From NCBI RefSeq assembly GCF_003382685.1, contig NZ_KZ859508.1, positions 1 through 64,000 of the forward strand: a stretch of 64,000 bases of DNA, written 5' to 3'. The stretch comes from Halorussus litoreus (GTDB lineage Archaea; Halobacteriota; Halobacteria; Halobacteriales; Haladaptataceae). The translations under genes were made by a program, and so were the position numbers. Positions 45,183-58,399 of this stretch are shown here, in pieces. The notes beneath the pieces were generated by a model that was given only the letters and a program-made list of their open reading frames with translations, did no database searches and was not told the origin of the DNA. How positions within the stretch are numbered: the first letter of the stretch is position 1; each line of letters starts with the position of its first letter.

Positions 45183-45218
45183 TAACACTTTTTGTGGCGT
45201 AGCTCCTACCGACTGTCG

Positions 45219-45980
45219 ATGCCCAATCCCAACCCCCAACCGGCGCACGGCTCGCCGAATCGCGGCGGAGCGACCCTCAACGAAGAACCCGAACTCACGA
45301 AGACCGGGACGACCACCGTCGCGCTCGCGGCGAGCGACGGCGCGGTCGTGATGGCCGACCGGCGAGCGAGCGCGGGCGGCCGGTTCGTCACCAGCAAGGA
45401 CACCCGGAAGATAGAGCAGGTCCACCCGGCGGGAGCCGTCGCGCTCTCTGGTGCGGTCGGCGAAATCCAGGCGTACACCCGCCGCCTCGCCGCGCAGGCC
45501 GACCAGTACGAAGTCCGGCGGGGCGACCCGCCGACGATGCACGCGTTCGCCACGTTCGCGGGCAACCTCCTCCGGAGCGGCCAGTTCCGGATGGTCAGAC
45601 CGCTCCTTGCCGGCGTCGACGCCGACGGCTCGCACGTGTACGGCATGGACGGCGCGGGCGGGGTCACCGAAGTGCCCTACGACGCGAAGGGCAGCGGGAC
45701 CCAGTTCGCGCTGGGTGTGCTCGAACGCGAGTACCGCCCCGACCTGACCGTCGCGGACGCGACCCCCGCCGCCGCCCGCGCGGTCGAGAGCGCAATCGAG
45801 CGCGACACCGCCAGCGGGAACGGCGTCACCGTCGCGCGGATTTCGACCGACGGCGTGACCATCGACGCTCACGACGACCCGGCGGAACTGTACGAGGGTG
45901 CGCCATCGGCCGAAGGGACTGACGGCGTGAACTCGTCCGAGGAAACGGACGGTGCGAACCCGTCCGAGGAGGTGGCCTGA
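45219..45980 (+). CDS. psmB: Proteasome beta subunit
   Basis: 253 residues from the ATG at 45219, preferred over an upstream frame extension. A propeptide of 30 residues ends TKTG, giving mature N-terminal Thr31 (TTTVALAASDG), the catalytic nucleophile. The Asp of 'MADRRAS' and the Lys of 'DTRKIEQ' (Lys64) complete the active site. The C-terminus extends ~35 acidic residues past the usual core. It is coupled by a one-base overlap to an alpha gene, an arrangement unlike the separate psmA and psmB of model haloarchaea. Confidence 0.93.
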   Translation: MPNPNPQPAHGSPNRGGATLNEEPELTKTGTTTVALAASDGAVVMADRRASAGGRFVTSKDTRKIEQVHPAGAVALSGAVGEIQAYTRRLAAQADQYEVRRGDPPTMHAFATFAGNLLRSGQFRMVRPLLAGVDADGSHVYGMDGAGGVTEVPYDAKGSGTQFALGVLEREYRPDLTVADATPAAARAVESAIERDTASGNGVTVARISTDGVTIDAHDDPAELYEGAPSAEGTDGVNSSEETDGANPSEEVA

Positions 45981-46753
45981 TGCAGGGCGACCAGCAGGCG
46001 TACGACCGCGGGACGAGCATCTTCTCGCCCGACGGCCGGCTGTATCAGGTCGAGTACGCCCGCGAGGCGGTCGAGCGCGGGAGCCCGAGCGTCGGCGTCC
46101 GGACCGCCGAGGGCGTGGTCCTCGCGGCCCGCCGGCGGGTCCGCTCCTCGCTGATGGACCCCGCGAGCGTCGAGAAGCTCCATCAGGTCGACGACCACCT
46201 CGGCGTCGCGTCGGCGGGCAACGCGGCCGACGCCCGCAAGCTCGTGGCGTTCGCTCGCGAGACCGCCCAGCGCGACCGATTGACCTACGACGAGTCGATG
46301 GGCGTCGAGACGCTGACGAAGGAAGTCGCAGACCACGTCCAGGAGTACACCCAGACCGGCGGCGCGCGGCCGTTCGGGACCGCGCTGCTGGTCGGCGGGG
46401 TGACCGGCGCGGGCATCGACGGGTCGGGCGACGGCCGGCCCGTCCTCTACGAGACCGACCCCTCCGGCACGCCCTCCGCGTGGGATGCCGCGGCGGTCGG
46501 CCGCGACAGCGGGGTCATCCGGGAGTTCCTCGAAGCCGAGTACACCGCGGGGCTCGACCTCGATTCGGGCGTCGACCTCGCGCTGGAAGCGCTGGCGGCC
46601 CCAGACGAGGCGACCTTCGCGCCAGCGGACGTGGCGGTCGCGACGATCCGAGTCGAGGAATCGGCCGGCTATCGCGACCTGCCGGCCGAGGAGCGCCGGG
46701 CGGCGCTCGACTCGCTCGGCTTGCTCGGCGATGACGGCCAGCAGGCGTCCTGA
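45980..46753 (+). CDS. psmA: Proteasome alpha subunit
   Basis: 257 residues. The gate-controlling start 'AYDRGTSIFSPDGRLYQVEYAREAV' contains the YDR motif. 'SVEKLHQVDDHLGVASAG' carries the Lys pocket that binds HbYX tails of the PAN/CDC48 ATPases. Compared with remembered haloarchaeal PsmA, the stretch 'LAARRRVRSSLMDPAS' and the C-terminal half differ noticeably, so this may be a second, divergent subunit. Forms a 20S particle with the preceding beta subunit. Confidence 0.93.
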   Translation: MQGDQQAYDRGTSIFSPDGRLYQVEYAREAVERGSPSVGVRTAEGVVLAARRRVRSSLMDPASVEKLHQVDDHLGVASAGNAADARKLVAFARETAQRDRLTYDESMGVETLTKEVADHVQEYTQTGGARPFGTALLVGGVTGAGIDGSGDGRPVLYETDPSGTPSAWDAAAVGRDSGVIREFLEAEYTAGLDLDSGVDLALEALAAPDEATFAPADVAVATIRVEESAGYRDLPAEERRAALDSLGLLGDDGQQAS

Positions 46754-46786: not shown

Positions 46787-48337
46787 TTACCGGTAGAGGT
46801 CGAACCGCTGGAAGACCGCCCCGAGCAGTACCGCGACCGGGATGATTTCGAGTCGGCCAACCCACATATTGACGATCAACATCGCTTTGGCGGTATCGGG
46901 CATCCCCGGCCCGGTGATACCGGAGTCCAGTCCGACGTTGCTCTGGGCGCTCATCACGTCGAAGATCACGTACTCTAACGGGTGGGCCGGTGACAAGACG
47001 CGGAGGAGAACGGCGACCCCGATCGCGAGGAACGTGAGCCAGAGGACGAACACGACCGTCGCTTCGGTGTACTCGCGTTCGGCCTGTTTCTCACTGAGTC
47101 TGCGCTCCCCGAGCTTGAGATACCGAATCGCATTGTCTGGGAGGAACACGCCGCGTATCTGCCAGACCGTCCCCTTGACGAGCGTGATCACCCGAATCAG
47201 CTTGAGCCCGCTCACCGTCGAACCGGCCGCTGCGCCGGTGAGCATGCCCAGACACGCCAGCAGCGTCGCGCCAGCGCTCCAGACCTGCTCGGTCCCGCCG
47301 CCGATCGTCGCGCTCCCGAAGCCGGTGTTCGAGGTCGCGGAGACGAACTGGAACAGACTCACCCGGAACGTCTCCTCCAGCGTCGCGTACTGCCCGTTGG
47401 CGTACAGAATACCGGTCAATCCGAGTGACCCAACCGTGAACCAGATGAACACCCACCGCGTCTGGAGGTCCGCGTAGAGGTTCCGTAGCTCACCCTTGAA
47501 TATCAGGTAGTGGATGGGGAACGCGATACTCCCCGCGACCATTATCGGGACCGTCGCGTACTCGATCAGTGGGCTACCGTAGTGCCCGATAGAGTCCGCG
47601 TGGACGGAGAACCCTCCCGTCGCAATCCCGGTCATGCCGTGATTGATCGCGTCCCAGAGCGGCGTTCCGGCGAGGACTAACAGGACGATAGAGCCGACGG
47701 TGAGTCCCACGAAGAGCTTCCAGATCTCCTGGACCGTCGTCACGATGCTCGGATGGATCTTCTCGGACCGAGCTTCGCTCTCGTAGAGCGTGTACGACCC
47801 GCTGCGCCCGCCCCGTCGCAGGATAGCGACGGTCAGCACGATCACGCCGACGCCACCGACCCATTCGATGAACGACCGCCACCAGTGGAGGGATCGGGGC
47901 AGTTTCTCCTCGACGGCGGCCATCGTGAGCCCGGTCCCGGTGAACCCGCTCATGCTCTCGAACACAGCGTCGAGCGGGTGGAGAAACACCGCCGTCGTCG
48001 CGTCCATCGGTGGGGTGTTCGTCCATGCGGGGAGTGGGTCGACCTGAATCGTCCACGCGACGAGGAGGAACGGCAGCCCACCGAGGAGGCCGGTAAGCGC
48101 CCACGCGGTCGCGGCGGTTACCATCGCCTCGCGTTTTTCGGGCGGGTCGGCGTCGCGGTATAGCCGGACGAGTCCAGTCCCGAGTCCGGCCACGACGACC
48201 GCGGAGACGACGAAGGCGGGGATCGCGTAGAACTCGCCGTTCACAGCCGCTACGACGATGGACGCCACCATCATCAAGGAGACGGCCTGAACGATGCGAC
48301 CGACGTCATGTCCGACAGCGTTCGTATCTACTCTCAT
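46787..48337 (-). CDS. trkH: TrkH-type potassium uptake channel 1
   Basis: 516 residues. Four repeated pore loops are readable by their Gly filters: SGFTGTGLTM, TGIATGGFSV, TSNTGFGSA and QSNVGLDSG. Eight to ten membrane helices lie around them (VASIVVAAVNGEFYAIPAFVVSAVVVAGLG at the N-terminus). It conducts K+ inward with a TrkA regulatory ring inside the cell. Last gene of the potassium island; 44 bases after the Usp gene. Confidence 0.95.
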   Translation of the reverse strand: MRVDTNAVGHDVGRIVQAVSLMMVASIVVAAVNGEFYAIPAFVVSAVVVAGLGTGLVRLYRDADPPEKREAMVTAATAWALTGLLGGLPFLLVAWTIQVDPLPAWTNTPPMDATTAVFLHPLDAVFESMSGFTGTGLTMAAVEEKLPRSLHWWRSFIEWVGGVGVIVLTVAILRRGGRSGSYTLYESEARSEKIHPSIVTTVQEIWKLFVGLTVGSIVLLVLAGTPLWDAINHGMTGIATGGFSVHADSIGHYGSPLIEYATVPIMVAGSIAFPIHYLIFKGELRNLYADLQTRWVFIWFTVGSLGLTGILYANGQYATLEETFRVSLFQFVSATSNTGFGSATIGGGTEQVWSAGATLLACLGMLTGAAAGSTVSGLKLIRVITLVKGTVWQIRGVFLPDNAIRYLKLGERRLSEKQAEREYTEATVVFVLWLTFLAIGVAVLLRVLSPAHPLEYVIFDVMSAQSNVGLDSGITGPGMPDTAKAMLIVNMWVGRLEIIPVAVLLGAVFQRFDLYR

Positions 48338-48381
48338 CGTGGATAGCAGTGTGTAGGTCTCAAATATAGGTAATTTGGAAT

Positions 48382-49512
48382 TTAACTGTCGTCGTCAATC
48401 GCTTCGATACCTCGCTTCCATCGGTAGTAGAGCGAACGCATAACGCGATCCGGATCCCGTGACAGGAGTACTGTCACCTCGCTCAGTTCCGAAAGCGTCT
48501 GCTGTACCGATCCAAAGACGAACTGTTCTAACCGGGATTTATTCTCGGGCATCCCTATCGACGTGAAGTCGTGTGCCTTCGCTTCCTGTACGATCTCTTC
48601 AGTCGTGTCGGAAGCCTCCCTCAGTTCCGTTTCGACCGTCACGTCAGAACCGAGCACGTATTCGGCGAACGTCAGCAGGTCCTCGCCTTCGGTCGTCGCT
48701 CGGTCGGATCCATCGGGTGAGATAACGTGGAGAACGGTGATCGAAGCGTCCGTAGCGCGTGCTACTGCGCGTGCTGCTTCCGTCGCGAGAGCGGAATGCG
48801 GGCCTGTCCCAACGGGGAGGAGTATCGAGTCTATCGTTTCCGCGTCGGACTGTGCGAGTGAAGCGACGGTGTGTTCCTCGACGTCTGGAACGTACAGCGC
48901 GTTCTCTCCTCGTTTCACGCCCAGATTTTCGACGAACACGTCACATTCGGCGTCGGCCAGTACGGTGTCAATCGTACTTCGATTGAGTACCTCACCTCCG
49001 TCGATGCCTGCGTCGCGTAGCAGCAATACCGCAGTCTCGTTCCCATCACCGATGACGTCGAGTATCCCCTCCGTAGTATCCGTCACGACGCGAACGACAG
49101 CGCTGGTCGGGACGCTCGAATCGAGATTCTGAGCCACGTCTGCTACCCGTGCTAACTGTGCTCGTCGTTCTTCGACGACCTCGACGACAGTTTCCGTGTC
49201 GGGGTCAGCCGGCTGGTCCGTTCGGACGTACTTCCGAACCGCTTCGAGCGATGCTTCGTTCGTAACTGTCTCGATGCCGAGCAGGAGGACCCGACCCTCG
49301 TTATCTGCTGCAAGTGCAGTTGCCGTCCGGAGGAACTGTCGAGCGTCGATTGCCATACTCGAATCGTGCACCGCGTCGGTGATGGGAACGACGACGGTGT
49401 ACTCCGGTGTGTGAACGAGCGGTCCGCTACGAAGGTACGAATCGTCCTTCGCACTGGCGGATTCGCGTTGGACTGCGATTCGAACATCCGAGCGCTCGGA
49501 GTCGCCCGGCAT
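48382..49512 (-). CDS. Double universal-stress-protein domain protein
   Basis: 376 residues. Two UspA-like domains: the first begins 'EYTVVVPITDAVHDSSMAIDA' and the second 'ETIDSILLPVGTGPHSALATEAA', which has the GxGPHS nucleotide-binding loop; the first lacks it. A short charged N-terminus precedes them. Two bases separate it from the upstream trkA stop. Usp domains bind ATP or c-di-nucleotides and can gate transporters; here it likely modulates the Trk system. Confidence 0.85.
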   Translation of the reverse strand: MPGDSERSDVRIAVQRESASAKDDSYLRSGPLVHTPEYTVVVPITDAVHDSSMAIDARQFLRTATALAADNEGRVLLLGIETVTNEASLEAVRKYVRTDQPADPDTETVVEVVEERRAQLARVADVAQNLDSSVPTSAVVRVVTDTTEGILDVIGDGNETAVLLLRDAGIDGGEVLNRSTIDTVLADAECDVFVENLGVKRGENALYVPDVEEHTVASLAQSDAETIDSILLPVGTGPHSALATEAARAVARATDASITVLHVISPDGSDRATTEGEDLLTFAEYVLGSDVTVETELREASDTTEEIVQEAKAHDFTSIGMPENKSRLEQFVFGSVQQTLSELSEVTVLLSRDPDRVMRSLYYRWKRGIEAIDDDS

Positions 49513-49514
49513 CG

Positions 49515-50180
49515 TTACGGCCCCGTGAAGGCGTCCGTAATCCGGCTCGTTGCCCCGTTTCTCGCGAAAATCGTGACGACGTCACCCGCCTGAATGTCCG
49601 TCTCTCCCTGCGGGATGAGCATCTCGCCGTCCCGAACGATGGCCACAATAATCGTCTCCTCGGGTAGCAGGTCTTCCCTATCGGCTTCGATGAGGGTGAG
49701 GCCCCCTATCGGAGCGCCGTCGTCGACCGTGGTCTCGAATATTTCGGCTCCGCTAGCGATCGGCATGAAGTCCTGGATCGTCGGGTGTTGGACGGCTCGG
49801 TAGAGGTACTGGCCGTTGAGTTGGTGCGGGCTCTCGACGATGTTCACTCCGAGATCCTCGAACAGTTCGATGTGATCGGGATCGTTGATCGAACTCACGA
49901 GCGTCTCGACCCCGTACTGCTTTCCGAACATGGAGATCATGAGGTTCACCGAATCGCTCCCAGTCGTCGAGATGAGCGCGTCGGCCTCCTCGACGCCGGC
50001 TTCGAGCAGGATCTCGTTCGACGCCGCGTCGGCGTTGATGACCAGACAGTCGGCGGCGGCGCTCACCTCCTCGGCGAGTTCCGCATCGCGTTCGATGACG
50101 ACGACTTCGTGGTCGTCTTGAGTGGCTAGGTCGATGACTGTGCTTCCGGTGCGGCCTGCGCCGATGATGATTACGTACAT
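49515..50180 (-). CDS. trkA: TrkA-type potassium channel subunit 1
   Basis: 221 residues. The KTN (RCK_N) domain starts 'MYVIIIGAGRTGSTVIDLA' with the GxGxxG dinucleotide site and 'VVVIERD' acidic residue for NAD(H) ribose. The RCK_C domain covers about 140-215 (IFETTVDDGAPIGGLTL to GDVVTIFAR). It forms the cytoplasmic gating ring for TrkH. Encoded between the second TrkH and the Usp gene. Confidence 0.95.
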   Translation of the reverse strand: MYVIIIGAGRTGSTVIDLATQDDHEVVVIERDAELAEEVSAAADCLVINADAASNEILLEAGVEEADALISTTGSDSVNLMISMFGKQYGVETLVSSINDPDHIELFEDLGVNIVESPHQLNGQYLYRAVQHPTIQDFMPIASGAEIFETTVDDGAPIGGLTLIEADREDLLPEETIIVAIVRDGEMLIPQGETDIQAGDVVTIFARNGATSRITDAFTGP

Positions 50181-50300
50181 TGGTTGTTGGTTGTGGCGGT
50201 AGTAGTTAGCTCCCGATGCGTTCGAGTGATGCCGACACTGTCGGGCGGATCAGGAACGTCGAGTGCGGGAGTGCGAGGCGTACTTCGGTGAACCATGTTT

Positions 50301-51926
50301 CTACCTCCGGACGATACTGTTGATCAGGACGAGGACGGGGATGATCTCGAGCCGCCCCATCCACATCTGGACGATGAACAGTAGTTCCGCGACGACCGGT
50401 ATATTCGGACCCGTGATCCCCGAGGAGAGCCCAACGGTTCCCTGTGCAGTCGCGACCTCGAAGATGGCGTCCGCGAGGGTGAACTCCGAAGGAAGCACTG
50501 CCAACAGCACGAACAACGATAGGACCAGGAGCACGAGATACGCGAACGCGAACGTCGTCGCAGCGCGAATCTCGTCGTTGGCCTCGTCTCGCTTGAAGAT
50601 CCGCTGTCCGATCCGGAGGTCCTCGATTGCGTGCCCGGGGAGGAACGCCCGCGAAACCTCCCAGCTGATCCCCCGCGCGATGATGTAGCCACGCAGAATC
50701 TTGATCCCGCCGACCGTCGCGCCTGCGCACCCGCCGAGTAGCATCGCACCGAACACGATGAACATGACCGCCCCGTCGTTCCAGTCACCGATTGCAGACG
50801 TCTGCCAGCCGGTGGTCGTCTGCGCGCTGATGAACTGGAACAGGCCGTCGCGGAACGCCTGACTCGTCGCCACTCGTCCGACGTACCCGATCGGGTCACC
50901 GTTGTAGGGGACGCCGACCCAGCGAGCGAGAAACGCCGACAGGCCGAGCGCGCCGACGACGAACATGCCGAAGAGCACTCTGACCTGCGGGTCCCGCGTG
51001 AACTCCCGGAGGTCACGCTCGGAGACTGCCCCGTAGTACACCGGAATCGAGATCGCGCCCGTGATCATCGCCGGGATGTGGACCACCTCCATCGCGTAGG
51101 AGCCGTAGCCGGCGATCGAATCGTCGAGGGTACTGAACCCGCCGGTGGACTGCCCGGTCATCGCGTGATTGACCGCGTCGAAGATCGTCTGCTCGATGCC
51201 GTAGCCGGGGTTGACGAGGAACGTCGCCGCTGCGAGGTAGACGGCGACCAGGGCGGTGATCCCGACGTAGAGTTTCCAGATCGCGCGCGCGGTTCCCGCG
51301 ATGCTCGGCCGCAACTTCTCGTTGCGCCCCTCGGACTGGTACAGCGAGATTCCCGCGGTGCCGTGTGGCTGGCGGAGGATCGCGAGCGAGAGGACGATCA
51401 TCCCTGCGCCGCCGATCCACTGTATCTGCGAGCGGTACCAGAGGAATCCGTGGCCCACCGAGGGTTCGTGGACGCTCATGGTCAGGCCGGTGGTGGTGTA
51501 CCCGCTCATGCTCTCGAAGAACGCGTGGACCGGGTTCTGGAAGTTGAGGAGGCTCGACTGATAGGTCGCGCCCGCGGGAACGAATGATTCGAGGACGGCC
51601 GGTGGCGTGACGTACGCCGCGATGATGAACGGGAGCGCGCCGAACGCTGCGGTGACGAGCCACCCGAGCGCCGCGACGATCATCGCGTGGTGGCGTTGCG
51701 GTTCGGGAGCGTCCTCACACAGCCTGTAGGCGGCCCCGCCAGCGAGCGCGGTGATTCCGCCGCCGATCAGGAACGCAACTGCGCTGTACCACTCCTGATA
51801 GAGCAGCGAGACGAGTAGCGGGACCGCCATCAGTCCCCCGATGAGGACTTGTAGCGCTCCGATGTCTCTGAGGACCGTTTTCGCGGCGGTCACGAAGCCG
51901 GGGCGGCCGACGGACGTGTTAGACAT
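50301..51926 (-). CDS. trkH: TrkH-type potassium uptake channel 2
   Basis: 541 residues, longer than TrkH 1 at the N-terminus. Filter loops: SGYTTTGLTM, TGQSTGGFST, SAQTTTGWQT, TAQGTVGLSS. The first three contain an extra Thr compared with TrkH 1, which may change affinity. Between the second TrkA and the first TrkA. Pairs with one of the two adjacent TrkA subunits. Confidence 0.95.
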   Translation of the reverse strand: MSNTSVGRPGFVTAAKTVLRDIGALQVLIGGLMAVPLLVSLLYQEWYSAVAFLIGGGITALAGGAAYRLCEDAPEPQRHHAMIVAALGWLVTAAFGALPFIIAAYVTPPAVLESFVPAGATYQSSLLNFQNPVHAFFESMSGYTTTGLTMSVHEPSVGHGFLWYRSQIQWIGGAGMIVLSLAILRQPHGTAGISLYQSEGRNEKLRPSIAGTARAIWKLYVGITALVAVYLAAATFLVNPGYGIEQTIFDAVNHAMTGQSTGGFSTLDDSIAGYGSYAMEVVHIPAMITGAISIPVYYGAVSERDLREFTRDPQVRVLFGMFVVGALGLSAFLARWVGVPYNGDPIGYVGRVATSQAFRDGLFQFISAQTTTGWQTSAIGDWNDGAVMFIVFGAMLLGGCAGATVGGIKILRGYIIARGISWEVSRAFLPGHAIEDLRIGQRIFKRDEANDEIRAATTFAFAYLVLLVLSLFVLLAVLPSEFTLADAIFEVATAQGTVGLSSGITGPNIPVVAELLFIVQMWMGRLEIIPVLVLINSIVRR

Positions 51927-51949
51927 AGTATTTATCTCTCCGTTATTGA

Positions 51950-52636
51950 TTACACGGTCTGGTCTTCGTAGTGTCCGAAGATGTCCGTGAGACTCGGGTC
52001 CGCTCCAGTCGCGGAATAGACGGTCAACAGATCGTTCGCTTCGATTTGCGTATTTCCTCGCGGCGTCAGTGGCCTGTCTTCGCCCTCCCGTTCGATGGCG
52101 ACGATCAGGACGTCGTCCGAGAGGAGGTCTTCCCTCCCTACTTCAGTGAGGGTCTTGCCAGCAATTGGTGCGTTCTCCGTTACCGTTATCTCGAAGACTT
52201 CCGCTTCGTTGCCGATCCGCATGTAATCGACGATAGCTGGCCTAGCGACCGCCCGATAGAGATACCCCGCGATGAGCTGTTGGGGATTTTCGATCGTGTT
52301 CACCCCGATCTGCCGGAAGAGGTTCATGTGCTCTGCACTGTGAACCACCGACGTGATCGCCGGAATATCGAACTCCTCCGCGAGCAAACAGACCATGACG
52401 TTCGTGGCGTCTTGGTCGGTCGTCGAGATAATTGCGTCAGCCCGCTCGGCCCCGGCATCGTCGAGCGTTTCTTTCGTGGTAGCGTCCGCATTGAGCACCA
52501 AACAGTCGTACTCACTGGCGATCTCGTCAGCTTTCTGCGTGTTTCGCTCGATGACCACTACCTCGTTTCCGGAACGAGTCGCGATGTCGATGAGGGGCGT
52601 ACCAATGTCGCCCGCTCCAACGATGATAATGTACAT
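51950..52636 (-). CDS. trkA: TrkA-type potassium channel subunit 2
   Basis: 228 residues. KTN domain 'MYIIIVGAGDIGTPLIDIA' (GxGxxG) and 'VVVIERNTQ'; RCK_C domain from about residue 145 (VFEITVTENAPIAGKTL to NDLLTVYSATGAD). It starts 23 bases before trkH 2. Two TrkA subunits in one locus suggest each TrkH has its own gating ring, or that mixed rings form. Confidence 0.95.
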   Translation of the reverse strand: MYIIIVGAGDIGTPLIDIATRSGNEVVVIERNTQKADEIASEYDCLVLNADATTKETLDDAGAERADAIISTTDQDATNVMVCLLAEEFDIPAITSVVHSAEHMNLFRQIGVNTIENPQQLIAGYLYRAVARPAIVDYMRIGNEAEVFEITVTENAPIAGKTLTEVGREDLLSDDVLIVAIEREGEDRPLTPRGNTQIEANDLLTVYSATGADPSLTDIFGHYEDQTV

Positions 52637-52680
52637 GTATAGTTTGAATTATGGTGTTTGATCTCCGCTTGCGTAGCCGA

Positions 52681-53031
52681 TCAGTTACCTTCGGAGTCAT
52701 CGTACACCTTCCCGAGGTAGTGCCATCGGTACTTGCCATTCCCACCGTCGATCTCGGGTTCCCAGTTGACCCTGTAGGCGAACGGTCCGCGTGCTTGACC
52801 CGTTTCGTCCGGACGTTCGACGACGACGATCGTGTAGCCGTCGTGGTCTTCCACGCGAACGAGTTCTTCCCCGCGTCGGGATTCGATTGCATCCGTGAGG
52901 GGCGGATGCTCTCGGAGGAGTTGCTGGGCGTAATGGATGATATCCCTGAGTTGGCCGTCACTGCTGTCTTCGAGTCCAGCGATGACTCGTTCAGGGACGT
53001 TTTCAGGGGGGTTCGTATCCGATGATGTCAT
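52681..53031 (-). CDS. Hypothetical protein, first gene of the potassium operon
   Basis: 116 residues. The N-terminal half is helical (NVPERVIAGLEDSSDGQLRDIIHYAQQLLRE), and the C-terminal half is beta-rich with aromatic residues (ELVRVEDHDGYTIVVVER; AYRVNWEPEIDGGNGKYRWHYLG). No transmembrane helix or signal. I do not recognise it; its position suggests an accessory to the Trk system. It lies 44 bases upstream of trkA 2. Confidence 0.65.
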   Translation of the reverse strand: MTSSDTNPPENVPERVIAGLEDSSDGQLRDIIHYAQQLLREHPPLTDAIESRRGEELVRVEDHDGYTIVVVERPDETGQARGPFAYRVNWEPEIDGGNGKYRWHYLGKVYDDSEGN

Positions 53032-53440
53032 ACGTTGAGGTGGGCCATTGGCGGTACTAGTCGCGCTACGCGGACTCCGATGGCCGGCGAAGCGATTTTT
53101 CGAGCGATATGTTTACTATCACTGAATCTGTCCACTTCACCCTGAATTTCCGCTCCACTATAAATATTGGTATCTCATTTCGTTCGGGGAAATCTAGCGC
53201 CCCTCAATTTTTGAATTGCAAATCGAGTCACCAGTCGAACAGTGATACGCGTGCGAAAGGCGGTTCCGTCGACCGATTCCGAGAAGTTCGGATGTGGTGC
53301 CTTGGTCCGAGGAGTAATCTCCGTGACCATGCTCTCGTCACTACTCTCGGCATCACCGCCGGGTATCGCGACCGTCGCGATCCGTCTTTTAGGACAGATT
53401 TACAGGGAAGGCCTTTACTTGTCCCACTCGTAATTCCGCT
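53032..53440. promoter_or_regulatory. Divergent promoter region of the potassium island
   Basis: 409 AT-rich bases between the operon and the Lrp-RCK regulator. It contains TATAAATATTGG (about 53160), the inverted repeat CAATT-tttg-AATTG near 53207-53220, and CCTTTACTTGTCC about 25 bases before the regulator ATG. A likely site of regulator binding; no gene seen. Confidence 0.5.
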
Positions 53441-54184
53441 ATGGCTCACCGCGTCGACGAGATCGACAAACGAATCCTCTATTATCTGGCGCTGGACGCT
53501 CGGAACACGGCGACGTCGGATATCGCCGAGGAGATGGAAGTGACACCGGCGACGATCCGGAATCGGATCAAACAGCTCGAAGAGCAGGGCATCCTTCGAG
53601 GGTATCTCGCAGACATCGATTACAAATCCGTCGAAGGATTCGTCACCTATCAGTTTCGCTGTACGGCCTCCATCCCGGACCGAGCCCGACTGGCTCAGTC
53701 GGCCCTCGAGATTTCCGGCGTCGTAACCGTTCGGGAACTGATGTCCGGATCTGCGAACTTGGAGATCACGGTCGTCGGAGCCGACACCGACGACATCAAC
53801 CAGATCGCGGGCGAACTCTCGGACTTGGACCTCGAGATCGAAGAAGAGAGCGTCGTCGAAGGCACGTACCACACGCCGTACAACCCGTTCGGCCCGGAGA
53901 AGGTGCCGAAGGGGCCGTCGTTGACGGACTTCATGAGTTTGGCCGGGGACGCGGAGGTCGTCGAATTCACGGTTTCGGAGGGGGCCGAGATCGCGGGTCT
54001 GACTATCGAACAGGCGGTCGACCGGGACCTGTTGGCCGACGAGATGCTCGTCGTCGGCATCGAACGCGACGGGGATGTCCTCACTCCCAAGGGTGAAACC
54101 GTAATTCAAACCGGAGACGTGGTTTCCCTGTTCTCGAAGGCACCCTTGGCGAAGAATTCGTTGGAGGTATTCGGGACGCAGTGA
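53441..54184 (+). CDS. Lrp/AsnC regulator fused to an RCK_C (TrkA_C) domain
   Basis: 247 residues. The N-terminal winged helix is an AsnC type: 'DEIDKRILYYLALDARNTATSDIAEEM' and 'VTPATIRNRIKQLEEQGI'. A RAM-like domain (about 65-145) includes 'GVVTVRELMSGSANLEITVVG'. The C-terminal RCK_C domain (about 165-235) reads 'FTVSEGAEIAGLTIEQAV ... VVGIERDGDVLTPKGETVIQTGDVVSLF', very like the TrkA C-domains encoded opposite. RCK_C domains bind ions or c-di-AMP, so it probably senses potassium status and controls the adjacent trk genes. Confidence 0.88.
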   Translation: MAHRVDEIDKRILYYLALDARNTATSDIAEEMEVTPATIRNRIKQLEEQGILRGYLADIDYKSVEGFVTYQFRCTASIPDRARLAQSALEISGVVTVRELMSGSANLEITVVGADTDDINQIAGELSDLDLEIEEESVVEGTYHTPYNPFGPEKVPKGPSLTDFMSLAGDAEVVEFTVSEGAEIAGLTIEQAVDRDLLADEMLVVGIERDGDVLTPKGETVIQTGDVVSLFSKAPLAKNSLEVFGTQ

Positions 54185-54705: not shown

Positions 54706-54876
54706 CTGGGAGTAGCACTTGTAAACGACCAGAAACGGCAGTAACGCACCACAGCGTGCTACTCCAGCGACTTGGGAATAACCGGTGAATCTAAAGCCAT
54801 CGCGCCGAAAGAATCGAATACTGCAAAATACGCTGTCAACGAAGTGCCACAGCACATCTACGATACACCACCTGAA

Positions 54877-55332
54877 ATGACCGAGCAAAATGTTGAGCAG
54901 AATCGGCTATCACTAATCCCGTCGGAGAACTTATTCCCAAATTCATCTACTGAAATCGATCGGCGGTCGTCCGAGGAACTCGACGAACCCGGCCTCCCGA
55001 CGGTGTTGAAATCCCTCGACGACGATAAATGTCGAACCATACTCTCGCTACTGGCCGACCCGAAATCTGCCAGCGAACTCTGTGAGGAGTGCGGTCTCTC
55101 ACGTTCGACGGTGTATCGGAAGCTCGACTTGCTCCGTGAATCGATGCTCGTCCGTGAATACACCGAGGTTCGGCATGACGGACCCAACGCGACTCTCTAC
55201 GAACGCGATTTTACTGATATCTCAATCAGCGTCACCGATGACGAGTTCACGATAGAGGTATCCCGACCCGAAGAAGACCCAGAAGACCGCATGGCAACGT
55301 TCTGGTCTGCAATGAAGGAGGAATCAAAATGA
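54877..55332 (+). CDS. Winged-helix transcriptional regulator
   Basis: 151 residues from the ATG at 54877. A disordered N-terminal ~45 residues precede an ArsR-type winged helix: 'DDDKCRTILSLLADPKSASELCEECGLSRSTVYRKLDLL' and the wing 'EYTEVRHDGPNATLYERDF'. The C-terminal end 'EDRMATFWSAMKEE' may dimerise. It overlaps the next gene by four bases. Codon use is less GC-biased than in the flanking core genes. Probably regulates the downstream transport genes. Confidence 0.8.
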   Translation: MTEQNVEQNRLSLIPSENLFPNSSTEIDRRSSEELDEPGLPTVLKSLDDDKCRTILSLLADPKSASELCEECGLSRSTVYRKLDLLRESMLVREYTEVRHDGPNATLYERDFTDISISVTDDEFTIEVSRPEEDPEDRMATFWSAMKEESK

Positions 55333-55798: not shown

Positions 55799-58399
55799 AT
55801 GAAGCGAAGCCCTACTTCTGCGTACGCGGATCTCCTCGCATCGCGGAGCAGATTGATAATCGTACTGTTGCTCGTCATCAGTGCCGTCGTTGGTGCTGGC
55901 GCGATTGTCGGCACCACTGAGGAAGGCCAGATCGGTCAAGCCGGTATCGATTCTCCGGAACAGGCGGCACTTGACCGTATCGAAGCGACGTACGAGACGA
56001 ACGATGCAGTTGTTGCACAGGTTGTTATCAGGGACGAGGGAGGGGACGTTCTCACCCGCGAATCGTTACTTAAAACTCTCCGTCTTCAGCAGGAACTCCG
56101 AGAAAACGAATCGGTCAATGCGACACTTCGTGACGGAACGGGGATGGTCGGCATCGAGAATATCGTTGCGAACGTTGCGTACGCACACCAACAGCGTAGC
56201 GGTTCGTCAACTAACGCCAGTGATTCTGGAAACAGTACGTCGATGGCAAGACAGGGTCAGCCGTCAGCACCGACACTCGACCAGCAGATCACAGCACTTG
56301 CATCCAGCACCGACGAGGAAGTCGAAACGTATCTCAGCCGAATCCTCGGCCACGACGCGTCTGTTCCCGGCAACGAGCCAACTCAATTTCTGCCGACGGA
56401 TTACGAACCAGGGACGACGAGTGCAGACGCGAGAACGACTCTCGTCTTTCAGCAGAGTCCGAGCAGTTCGACTACGACCACCGAATCGGTGAACGATGCA
56501 CAGCTGGTCATCAGTTCTCTCGTCGAGAAGCGCTTCGACGATGCGTTCGTGTTCGGGCAGGGTCTCATCGATGCGGAATCCTCGCAGGCCATCGGCGACA
56601 CGTTCATCATCATCACGCCCGTCGCAATCGTTCTCTTGCTCACCGTCCTCACGATTGCCTACCGCGACCTCGTCGACGTTCTCGTGAGTATATTCGGCGT
56701 GGCCGTCGTGTTGGTGTGGTACGCTGGCATACAGGGGTGGCTCGAGATTCCGTCGAATTCGACCCTGATCGCCGTTCCGTTCTTGCTTATCGGCCTCAGT
56801 ATCGACTATTCGCTTCACGTCGTCATGCGCTACCGCGAAGCCCGAGAGGGGTCGCTCGACACCGACGATGAGAACGTCGGTCGACGAGATCCCGCGACAG
56901 CGATGCGTCTCGGAATCGTTGGGGTCGTTCTCGCCCTCGCTACCGCCGCCTTTTCGACGGCTGTCGGGTTCCTCTCGAACTACGTCAGTCCGCTGGGCTC
57001 AATTCGGGATTTCGCCATCCTGAGTGGTGTGGGAATCGTCGCCATCTTCGTCGTTTTCGCCGCGCTTGTCCCAGCTGTCAAACTCGAACTCGAACGGTTT
57101 TTCGACCGCCGTGGCCGCGACCGGCATACCTCCGCCGTCGGCGTCGGTTCGGGCCGGTTGAACCGTGTTCTCTCGGGTACCGCTACGCTTGCCCGGCGAG
57201 CCCCCCTCGTCGTCATCGTTCTCTCGTTACTCCTCGCCTCCGCAGGGACGTACGGCGCGACAAGTATCGACACCGAGTTCAACCAAGCCGATTTCATCCC
57301 GCAGGATGCGCCGTCGTGGATGGAGTCTCTCCCGGAACCGTTCGCACCCGGTGCGTACGAGGTGAGTGAGAACCTTGCGTACCTCAGTGACAATTTCCGC
57401 CAACGTGGAGAGGGATCAGAAGGCCAGATATTGATACGCGGGAACGTGACCGCACCAGCACTCCTTACCGCGACCGACGATGTGGTCCGCAATACGAACC
57501 GCAGCGGGACAGTCGTCGTCGGTTCCGATGGACGAGCAGCTATCGAAAGTCCAACGTCCGTCCTTCGAGCTGTCGCTTCGGAAAATCAAACGGTAGCGGA
57601 TGCAATTGCGGCCCGTGACGTAGATGGTGACGGCCTCCCGGACAGAGATGTCGCGGCGGTCTATGACCTGCTGTTCGATACTGCTCCCGAACGAGCATCG
57701 TCGGTTCTCTATCGTGCCGAGAACGGGTCATACGAATCTGCACGGCTAATTGTCGGCGTGCAGGGCGACGCCTCGGCTCAGTCGGTCGCAAGGGACGTAC
57801 GAGACATTTCCTCGACCATTGTACAGGACGTCCCAGTACGAGCTGTTGCAACGGGTGGTCCGGTCATCACTGCCGTCGTCCAAAGTGCGCTGTTCGAAAC
57901 GCTCGTCGAAGGATTTGCTATCACCCTTGGAGTCATTCTTGTCCTTCTTGTCGGTATGTACTGGTGGCGGTACCGCGCGCCGGGGCTGGGTGTCGTGACG
58001 CTCGCGCCCGTGCTGATCGCACTCGCGTGGTTGCTCGGTACCATGTCCATGCTCGATATCCCATTCAACAGCGAGACCGTCGTGATCACGAGCCTAGCGA
58101 TTGGTCTCGGCGTGGATTACAGCATTCACGTCAGTGAGCGGTTCGTCGACGAACGCGCTCGCCACGATTCGCTCGCCGAAACACTGGCAACAGCACTCGA
58201 AGGAACTGGTGGTGCATTGCTCGGAAGTGCAGTGACGACTGCGGCAGGCTTTGGGGTGCTCGCACTGGCGCTGTCACCCCCGCTCCAACGCTTCGGCATC
58301 GTCACTGGGTTGAGTATCGTCTACGCGTTCATAGCGTGCGTGACGGTACTTCCGTGCCTGCTCGTGGTTCGGGAGCGCGTGCTCACACGAGTGGCCTGA
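55799..58399 (+). CDS. MMPL/RND-family transporter
   Basis: 866 residues. Two repeats, each with one N-terminal helix, an extracellular loop of ~200-250 residues and a five-helix bundle. The sterol-sensing-like bundles contain 'IGLSIDYSLHVVMRYREAREG' and 'IGLGVDYSIHVSERFVDERARH', the usual GxxxDY motif of MMPL proteins. Substrate unknown; relatives export lipids or hydrophobic compounds. Less GC-biased than neighbouring genes, probably acquired with the preceding regulator. Confidence 0.93.
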   Translation: MKRSPTSAYADLLASRSRLIIVLLLVISAVVGAGAIVGTTEEGQIGQAGIDSPEQAALDRIEATYETNDAVVAQVVIRDEGGDVLTRESLLKTLRLQQELRENESVNATLRDGTGMVGIENIVANVAYAHQQRSGSSTNASDSGNSTSMARQGQPSAPTLDQQITALASSTDEEVETYLSRILGHDASVPGNEPTQFLPTDYEPGTTSADARTTLVFQQSPSSSTTTTESVNDAQLVISSLVEKRFDDAFVFGQGLIDAESSQAIGDTFIIITPVAIVLLLTVLTIAYRDLVDVLVSIFGVAVVLVWYAGIQGWLEIPSNSTLIAVPFLLIGLSIDYSLHVVMRYREAREGSLDTDDENVGRRDPATAMRLGIVGVVLALATAAFSTAVGFLSNYVSPLGSIRDFAILSGVGIVAIFVVFAALVPAVKLELERFFDRRGRDRHTSAVGVGSGRLNRVLSGTATLARRAPLVVIVLSLLLASAGTYGATSIDTEFNQADFIPQDAPSWMESLPEPFAPGAYEVSENLAYLSDNFRQRGEGSEGQILIRGNVTAPALLTATDDVVRNTNRSGTVVVGSDGRAAIESPTSVLRAVASENQTVADAIAARDVDGDGLPDRDVAAVYDLLFDTAPERASSVLYRAENGSYESARLIVGVQGDASAQSVARDVRDISSTIVQDVPVRAVATGGPVITAVVQSALFETLVEGFAITLGVILVLLVGMYWWRYRAPGLGVVTLAPVLIALAWLLGTMSMLDIPFNSETVVITSLAIGLGVDYSIHVSERFVDERARHDSLAETLATALEGTGGALLGSAVTTAAGFGVLALALSPPLQRFGIVTGLSIVYAFIACVTVLPCLLVVRERVLTRVA

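Follow-up and report, generated by a model that had tools for sequence, protein, structure and literature searches.

Haloarchaea hold very high KCl in the cytoplasm, and in the literature that we searched no regulator of haloarchaeal Trk uptake was found. A member of the Lrp/AsnC (FFRP) family with a TrkA-C domain was described in 2014 as Trh2 (VNG1285G) of Halobacterium salinarum NRC-1; the passages of that paper on Trh2 suggest a response to K+/NAD+, take the RAM domain to be non-functional, and describe distinct targets and a restriction to haloarchaea (PMC4236453). BusR of Streptococcus is also a transcription factor that uses an RCK_C domain: it controls an osmolyte transporter, combines an HTH with the RCK_C and binds c-di-AMP (PMC8517857). 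Archaeal Lrp proteins use clustered imperfect sites two or three helical turns apart, and the activators among them have sites a few bases from the BRE; three dimers of Ss-LrpB, a dual regulator of Sulfolobus solfataricus, wrap about 100 bp, and its autoregulation turns from positive to negative (PMC2995911). Beyond Trh2 we found no literature on the regulation of haloarchaeal trk genes by Lrp or c-di-AMP, and none that links an Lrp-RCK fusion to trk.

We analysed a stretch of 64,000 nucleotides from Halorussus litoreus (hereafter the window), in which six minus-strand genes, spanning 46787-53031, face a plus-strand Lrp/AsnC regulator (Table 1). An earlier note on this DNA had seen two TrkH, two TrkA, a Usp and a hypothetical protein opposite a regulator with a C-terminal RCK_C domain, and the Pfam matches agree with it. 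Its "double Usp" stands for one half of the protein, as the C-terminal half matches Pfam Usp but the N-terminal half fails to do so even with the threshold relaxed to E<=1. A further TrkH/TrkA pair of the genome is encoded on contig C40, where no Lrp-RCK gene adjoins it. Next to the island, the proteasome beta and alpha genes (45192-46753, plus strand) lie tail-to-tail with TrkH1, and an MMPL/RND-type transporter (55799-58399, plus strand) is encoded downstream of genes for an HTH protein (54772-55332) and a small membrane protein.

Table 1. Features of the trk-regulator locus, in window coordinates
Feature	Position	Strand	Basis
TrkH1, K+ channel subunit	46787-48337	-	Pfam TrkH
Usp protein, 376 aa; Usp domain in C-terminal half	48382-49512	-	Pfam
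TrkA1, gating subunit, RCK_N and RCK_C	49515-50180	-	Pfam TrkA_N and TrkA_C
TrkH2, K+ channel subunit	50301-51926	-	Pfam TrkH
TrkA2, gating subunit, RCK_N and RCK_C	51950-52636	-	Pfam TrkA_N and TrkA_C
Small protein, 116 aa, first gene of the trk operon	52681-53031	-	Conserved next to trk
Site 0 of the candidate operator array (ATTTCCGCTCCACTAT), weak here (4.5 bits), overlaps the trk TATA-like box	53146-53161		
TATA-like box (ATAAATATT on +), the probable promoter of trk	53160-53168	- (presumed orientation)	
Predicted operator site 1 (ATTTCGTTCGGGGAAA), flanking the trk promoter upstream, 17 bp from the TATA start	53177-53192		
Predicted operator site 2 (TTTTTGAATTGCAAAT), 31 bp from site 1	53208-53223		
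Probable regulator promoter (GGCCTTTACTTG), with a conserved TTTA some 27 nt ahead of the ATG	53408-53420	+	Inference
Lrp/AsnC-RCK_C regulator, 247 aa: HTH 7-48, RAM 68-139, linker ~145-165, RCK_C ~170-244	53441-54184	+	

A small gene beside the haloarchaeal trk genes is conserved. The 116-aa protein of the window has no matches in Pfam or NCBIfam and no solved relative at E<=0.001; its predicted structure consists of four strands and two helices. Relatives at other trk loci have a cysteine cluster, CxxGCxxCPHGPYLYHV, which is absent from the window's clade.

The regulator has two Pfam matches, HTH_AsnC at residues 6-47 (9.7e-08) and, above the curated cut-off, TrkA_C at 173-231 (1.5e-08). In a profile built from 26 relatives, residues 3-139 match solved Lrp/AsnC proteins and residues 160-232 match TrkA. 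An AlphaFold2 model (87 homologues, mean pLDDT 83) predicts an HTH, a RAM domain with its full fold and an RCK_C domain, the linker between the last two being disordered. The N-terminal part of this model retrieves Lrp/AsnC structures with Foldseek (TMt up to 0.79), and the regulator model also retrieves the RCK_C of the TrkA protein TM1088 as well as BusR (probability 1.00). The protein thus belongs to the Lrp/AsnC family, having an AsnC-type HTH followed by a RAM domain of the order beta-alpha-beta-beta-alpha-beta. It differs from BusR, which has a GntR winged HTH and a coiled-coil ruler in front of its RCK_C, and no RAM; common to both is only the general plan of an HTH joined to an RCK_C for the control, putative in our case, of transport. 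In the model the RCK_C domain has the same fold as in TrkA/KtrA (3jxo, rmsd 1.5-2.1 A), while TrkA_N, which Pfam finds in both neighbouring TrkA proteins, is absent, and the regulator therefore lacks the nucleotide-binding Rossmann domain.

With Trh2, for which K+ sensing was proposed, the regulator shares the combination of HTH, RAM and TrkA_C in one haloarchaeal protein, and its named homologues are almost all from Halobacteria, the one outside being a MAG labelled Thermoplasmatales. Since such a fusion was already described as Trh2, it is not new; on the other hand, the text of that paper on Trh2 mentions neither a trk operon nor an array of operators or an island on a plasmid (PMC4236453). 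What the sequences add is a clade-wide synteny with trk, a phased array of candidate operators and the absence of the canonical c-di-AMP pocket from nearly all members.

Full-length relatives of the regulator occur in 184 of the 292 sampled genomes of the class. In a tree of 84 regulators the window falls into a fully supported clade of 30, and in 28 of these TrkA or TrkH is encoded within 3 kb. The layout in this clade, often plasmid-borne, is nearly always divergent, with TrkH, TrkA and the small gene facing the regulator and the small gene first. In the wider family 55 of the 84 regulators lie within 3 kb of trk, across several separate clades. Furthermore, trk genes were found within 1.5 kb of 33 of 46 Lrp-RCK loci vs none of 11 loci of ordinary Lrp paralogues (Fisher p 1.4e-5).

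When the upstream regions of the clade are aligned, they are diverged except for the TATA-like box on the trk side and the AT-rich inverted repeats that surround it. These repeats form a putative array that brackets the TATA box, in which imperfect palindromes with a sequence around TTTCGC-N4-GCGAAA recur at about 31 bp, or three helical turns. The box lies about 128 nt upstream of the start of the small gene, and 110-133 nt in most relatives. In palindrome discovery the motif scored two to three times above Markov shuffles at all widths. Within the window's clade the leading offset is 30-31 bp, a count that is not independent because the training set of the motif consisted of related sequences; among 54 family members outside the training set, 30 and 31 bp are again the best spacings, and compared with composition-preserving shuffles 21 of these 54 reach p<=0.05 and 12 reach p<=0.01. 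Aligned on the TATA box, the sites peak at offsets -13, +18 and +48. Among the held-out clade members L002, L031 (with a perfect TTTCGCTATAGCGAAA), L038, L039, L042, L045 and L046 pass and L033 and L040 fail, the passes being not fully independent since the sites of L045 and L046 are identical and L038 is close to a training sequence. Site 0 is strong in relatives such as L064, L070, L074 and L076. A strict pattern of the site pair, allowing a single mismatch at most, has one hit in the 3.84-Mb genome, at the trk-regulator junction; since this pattern was modelled on the sites of the window itself, it is informative only for the absence of such pairs elsewhere.

The trk operon seems to have a leader of about 100 nt (53032-53160) of fairly constant length, which is unusual in a setting dominated by leaderless transcripts. 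We rejected a riboswitch or another structured element in it, as searches gave no Rfam match and no consensus fold. The regulator transcript, judging from the position of the TTTA before its ATG, is probably leaderless.

The candidate array fits the plan of archaeal Lrp site clusters. Like the array of Ss-LrpB, a protein without RCK_C, it comprises three imperfect palindromes at regular intervals close to a promoter. Because of the conserved synteny and the phased array at the trk promoter, local control of trk by its regulator is well supported at the level of sequence, and the coupling between the two that the earlier note proposed is right in outline, with the plasmid island (see below) pointing the same way.

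While the fusion, the synteny and the site array can be read from the sequence, we infer the binding, the sign of regulation and the signal. We consider it fairly probable that the protein is a dedicated haloarchaeal regulator of K+ uptake that travels with the trk genes and acts on phased sites at their promoter, as a switch like that of Ss-LrpB, with the RCK_C domain as the sensing part. Interacting Lrp-RCK dimers would bind two or three of the imperfect palindromes, about 31 bp apart, between their own gene and trk, and would wrap the DNA around the trk promoter. At site 1, just upstream of TATA/BRE, the geometry would be that of an archaeal Lrp activator site, and the weaker site 0 overlaps the TATA box; given these two positions, a switch of the Ss-LrpB type seems likely, in which low occupancy would activate trk and high occupancy would repress it. 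The RCK_C domain would take over from the RAM domain as sensor, or add to it, and would tune the assembly of the regulator to a signal that reports the state of K+ or of turgor.

The earlier note had suggested that one ligand shared by the regulator and the channel subunits, namely K+, Na+, a nucleotide or c-di-AMP, could set both gating and expression; of these, c-di-AMP and nucleotides are disfavoured. The known sites for ATP, ADP and NAD(H) sit in RCK_N (PMC5575661), which the regulator lacks, and a role of these known sites is therefore unlikely. The canonical c-di-AMP pocket of KtrA and BusR consists of I-[G/I]-x2-[N/D]-x7-[T/N]-I and a proline in a P-x-P loop, and it is missing from nearly all of 87 aligned regulators. 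The BusR residues I153/G154/N157/A164/T165/I166/P181 align to I189/E190/-/M202/L203/V204/G218 of the regulator. Position 190 (Gly or Ile in the canonical pocket) is Glu, Gln, Lys or Arg in most of the 87, position 203 (Thr or Asn) is Leu in 83 and position 218 (Pro) is Gly in 86, and all 87 have two extra residues between the pocket helix and the strand. As the pocket residues are not kept and two residues are inserted, a c-di-AMP circuit through the known pocket is unlikely. The RCK_C domains of TrkA1 and TrkA2 show the same non-canonical pattern. The earlier note had named a ligand site missing from the RCK_C domain as an outcome that would speak against its idea, and by that standard the known site is missing. 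A new ligand, or a contact with another protein, is possible for the RCK_C domain of the regulator.

One form that this could take, which we put forward only tentatively, is that the regulator monitors the state of the transporter, either through a novel ion or metabolite pocket in its RCK_C domain or by pairing with the RCK_C of TrkA. A related, rather doubtful explanation is that the domain is a dimerisation module and not a sensor of small molecules; it may pair with the RCK_C of TrkA, with free TrkA, or the lack of it, setting how the regulator assembles on DNA. RCK_C domains are dimeric, as in BusR (PMC8517857), those of the regulator and of the haloarchaeal TrkA proteins are alike in length and overall pattern, and no known ligand pocket is left in the former. 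The 2014 paper, where it deals with Trh2, suggests that the extra domain interferes with hetero-oligomerisation (PMC4236453). However, a tree of RCK_C domains gives no sign that the domain of the regulator tracks the neighbouring TrkA. The similarity between the two that the earlier note described exists (38% over residues 100-234, 40% over the domain), but it is no greater than that to the TrkA on contig C40 (44%). In the domain tree the window's regulator groups with other Lrp-RCK proteins, apart from the neighbouring TrkA, which rules out a copy of the latter. Since the regulator domains form essentially one group separate from TrkA, they are consistent with one old fusion. Moreover, the family members that adjoin permeases have no TrkA partner nearby.

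We regard it as improbable that the protein is a haloarchaeal BusR, in which c-di-AMP would bind the RCK_C dimers of the regulator and of the TrkA proteins and would set gating and expression jointly. The Foldseek match to BusR, a c-di-AMP receptor of HTH and RCK_C, would fit, the genome encodes one diadenylate cyclase, and c-di-AMP is essential in Haloferax (PMC6741144). On the other hand, the BusR pocket with its binding residues is not conserved, as set out above, and near-canonical pockets occur in two further RCK_C proteins encoded in this genome, at C26:39013-39210 (TLAEADVRKRTGCTIVAV) and C11:55970-56170 (SLASANFRDRYDATVLAL); these look like far better candidates for c-di-AMP receptors.

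There is little chance that we are dealing with an ordinary Lrp that responds to amino acids through its RAM domain, with the RCK_C as decoration and the K+ genes as one of many targets. The RAM fold is complete in the model, and roughly one in three members of the wider family lacks trk genes in its vicinity; many of these members stand divergent to genes for amino-acid permease-Usp fusions (e.g. L122:6433-8736, L113:9881-12295 and L101:9913-12387). This suggests a second class of targets, and for the family as a whole, which, with these members included, adjoins transporters, the signal may be something other than K+. We rejected the idea that these permease-Usp neighbours are K+ importers like KimA, as the solved structures most related to them are amino-acid transporters, without KimA among the matches. 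Against an ordinary Lrp, the regulator has no match to the Pfam AsnC ligand domain, the ordinary paralogues examined are never near trk, and the strict site pair is unique in the genome. For Trh2, the passages concerned judge the RAM domain as likely non-functional and find no overlap of targets with other Lrp proteins (PMC4236453).

The island is also mobile. All of it occurs with unchanged gene order, apart from an additional small Usp gene, on plasmid pSTJ002 of Halobacterium hubeiense (L151), where it is followed by plasmid-borne TFB and TBP genes, and a reduced version is found on plasmid PL131 of Natronomonas pharaonis; in total, relatives of the regulator are on 60 plasmid records. In the search for relatives of the regulator, identity is 88% in a genome of another family vs 89% in one of the same genus, which points to horizontal transfer. 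Between 52000 and 58000 the GC content of the window drops to 0.55-0.59 vs about 0.67 elsewhere, consistent with acquired DNA. These comparisons support a view of the regulator and the trk genes as one unit that moves as a plasmid-borne island. Mere passive linkage on such an island, which is plasmid-borne in several species and was transferred between families, with the regulator acting elsewhere, is very improbable, as the association with trk recurs in separate clades and a conserved putative operator, its geometry fixed to the TATA box, stands at the junction within diverged sequence.

The dedicated K+-uptake regulator that we favour would be an archaeal counterpart to BusR, built on another family of DNA-binding proteins. 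The analysis yields a defined regulator, a probable promoter and a candidate operator for haloarchaeal Trk uptake, and it narrows the question of the ligand, the known c-di-AMP and ATP/NAD sites being unlikely. What was for Trh2 a guess based on its domains becomes a testable circuit, and a known fusion is tied to a concrete candidate target. If the regulator does read the transporter, the same type of domain would set both the gating of the channel and the transcription of trk, a direct link from transporter to promoter in archaea.
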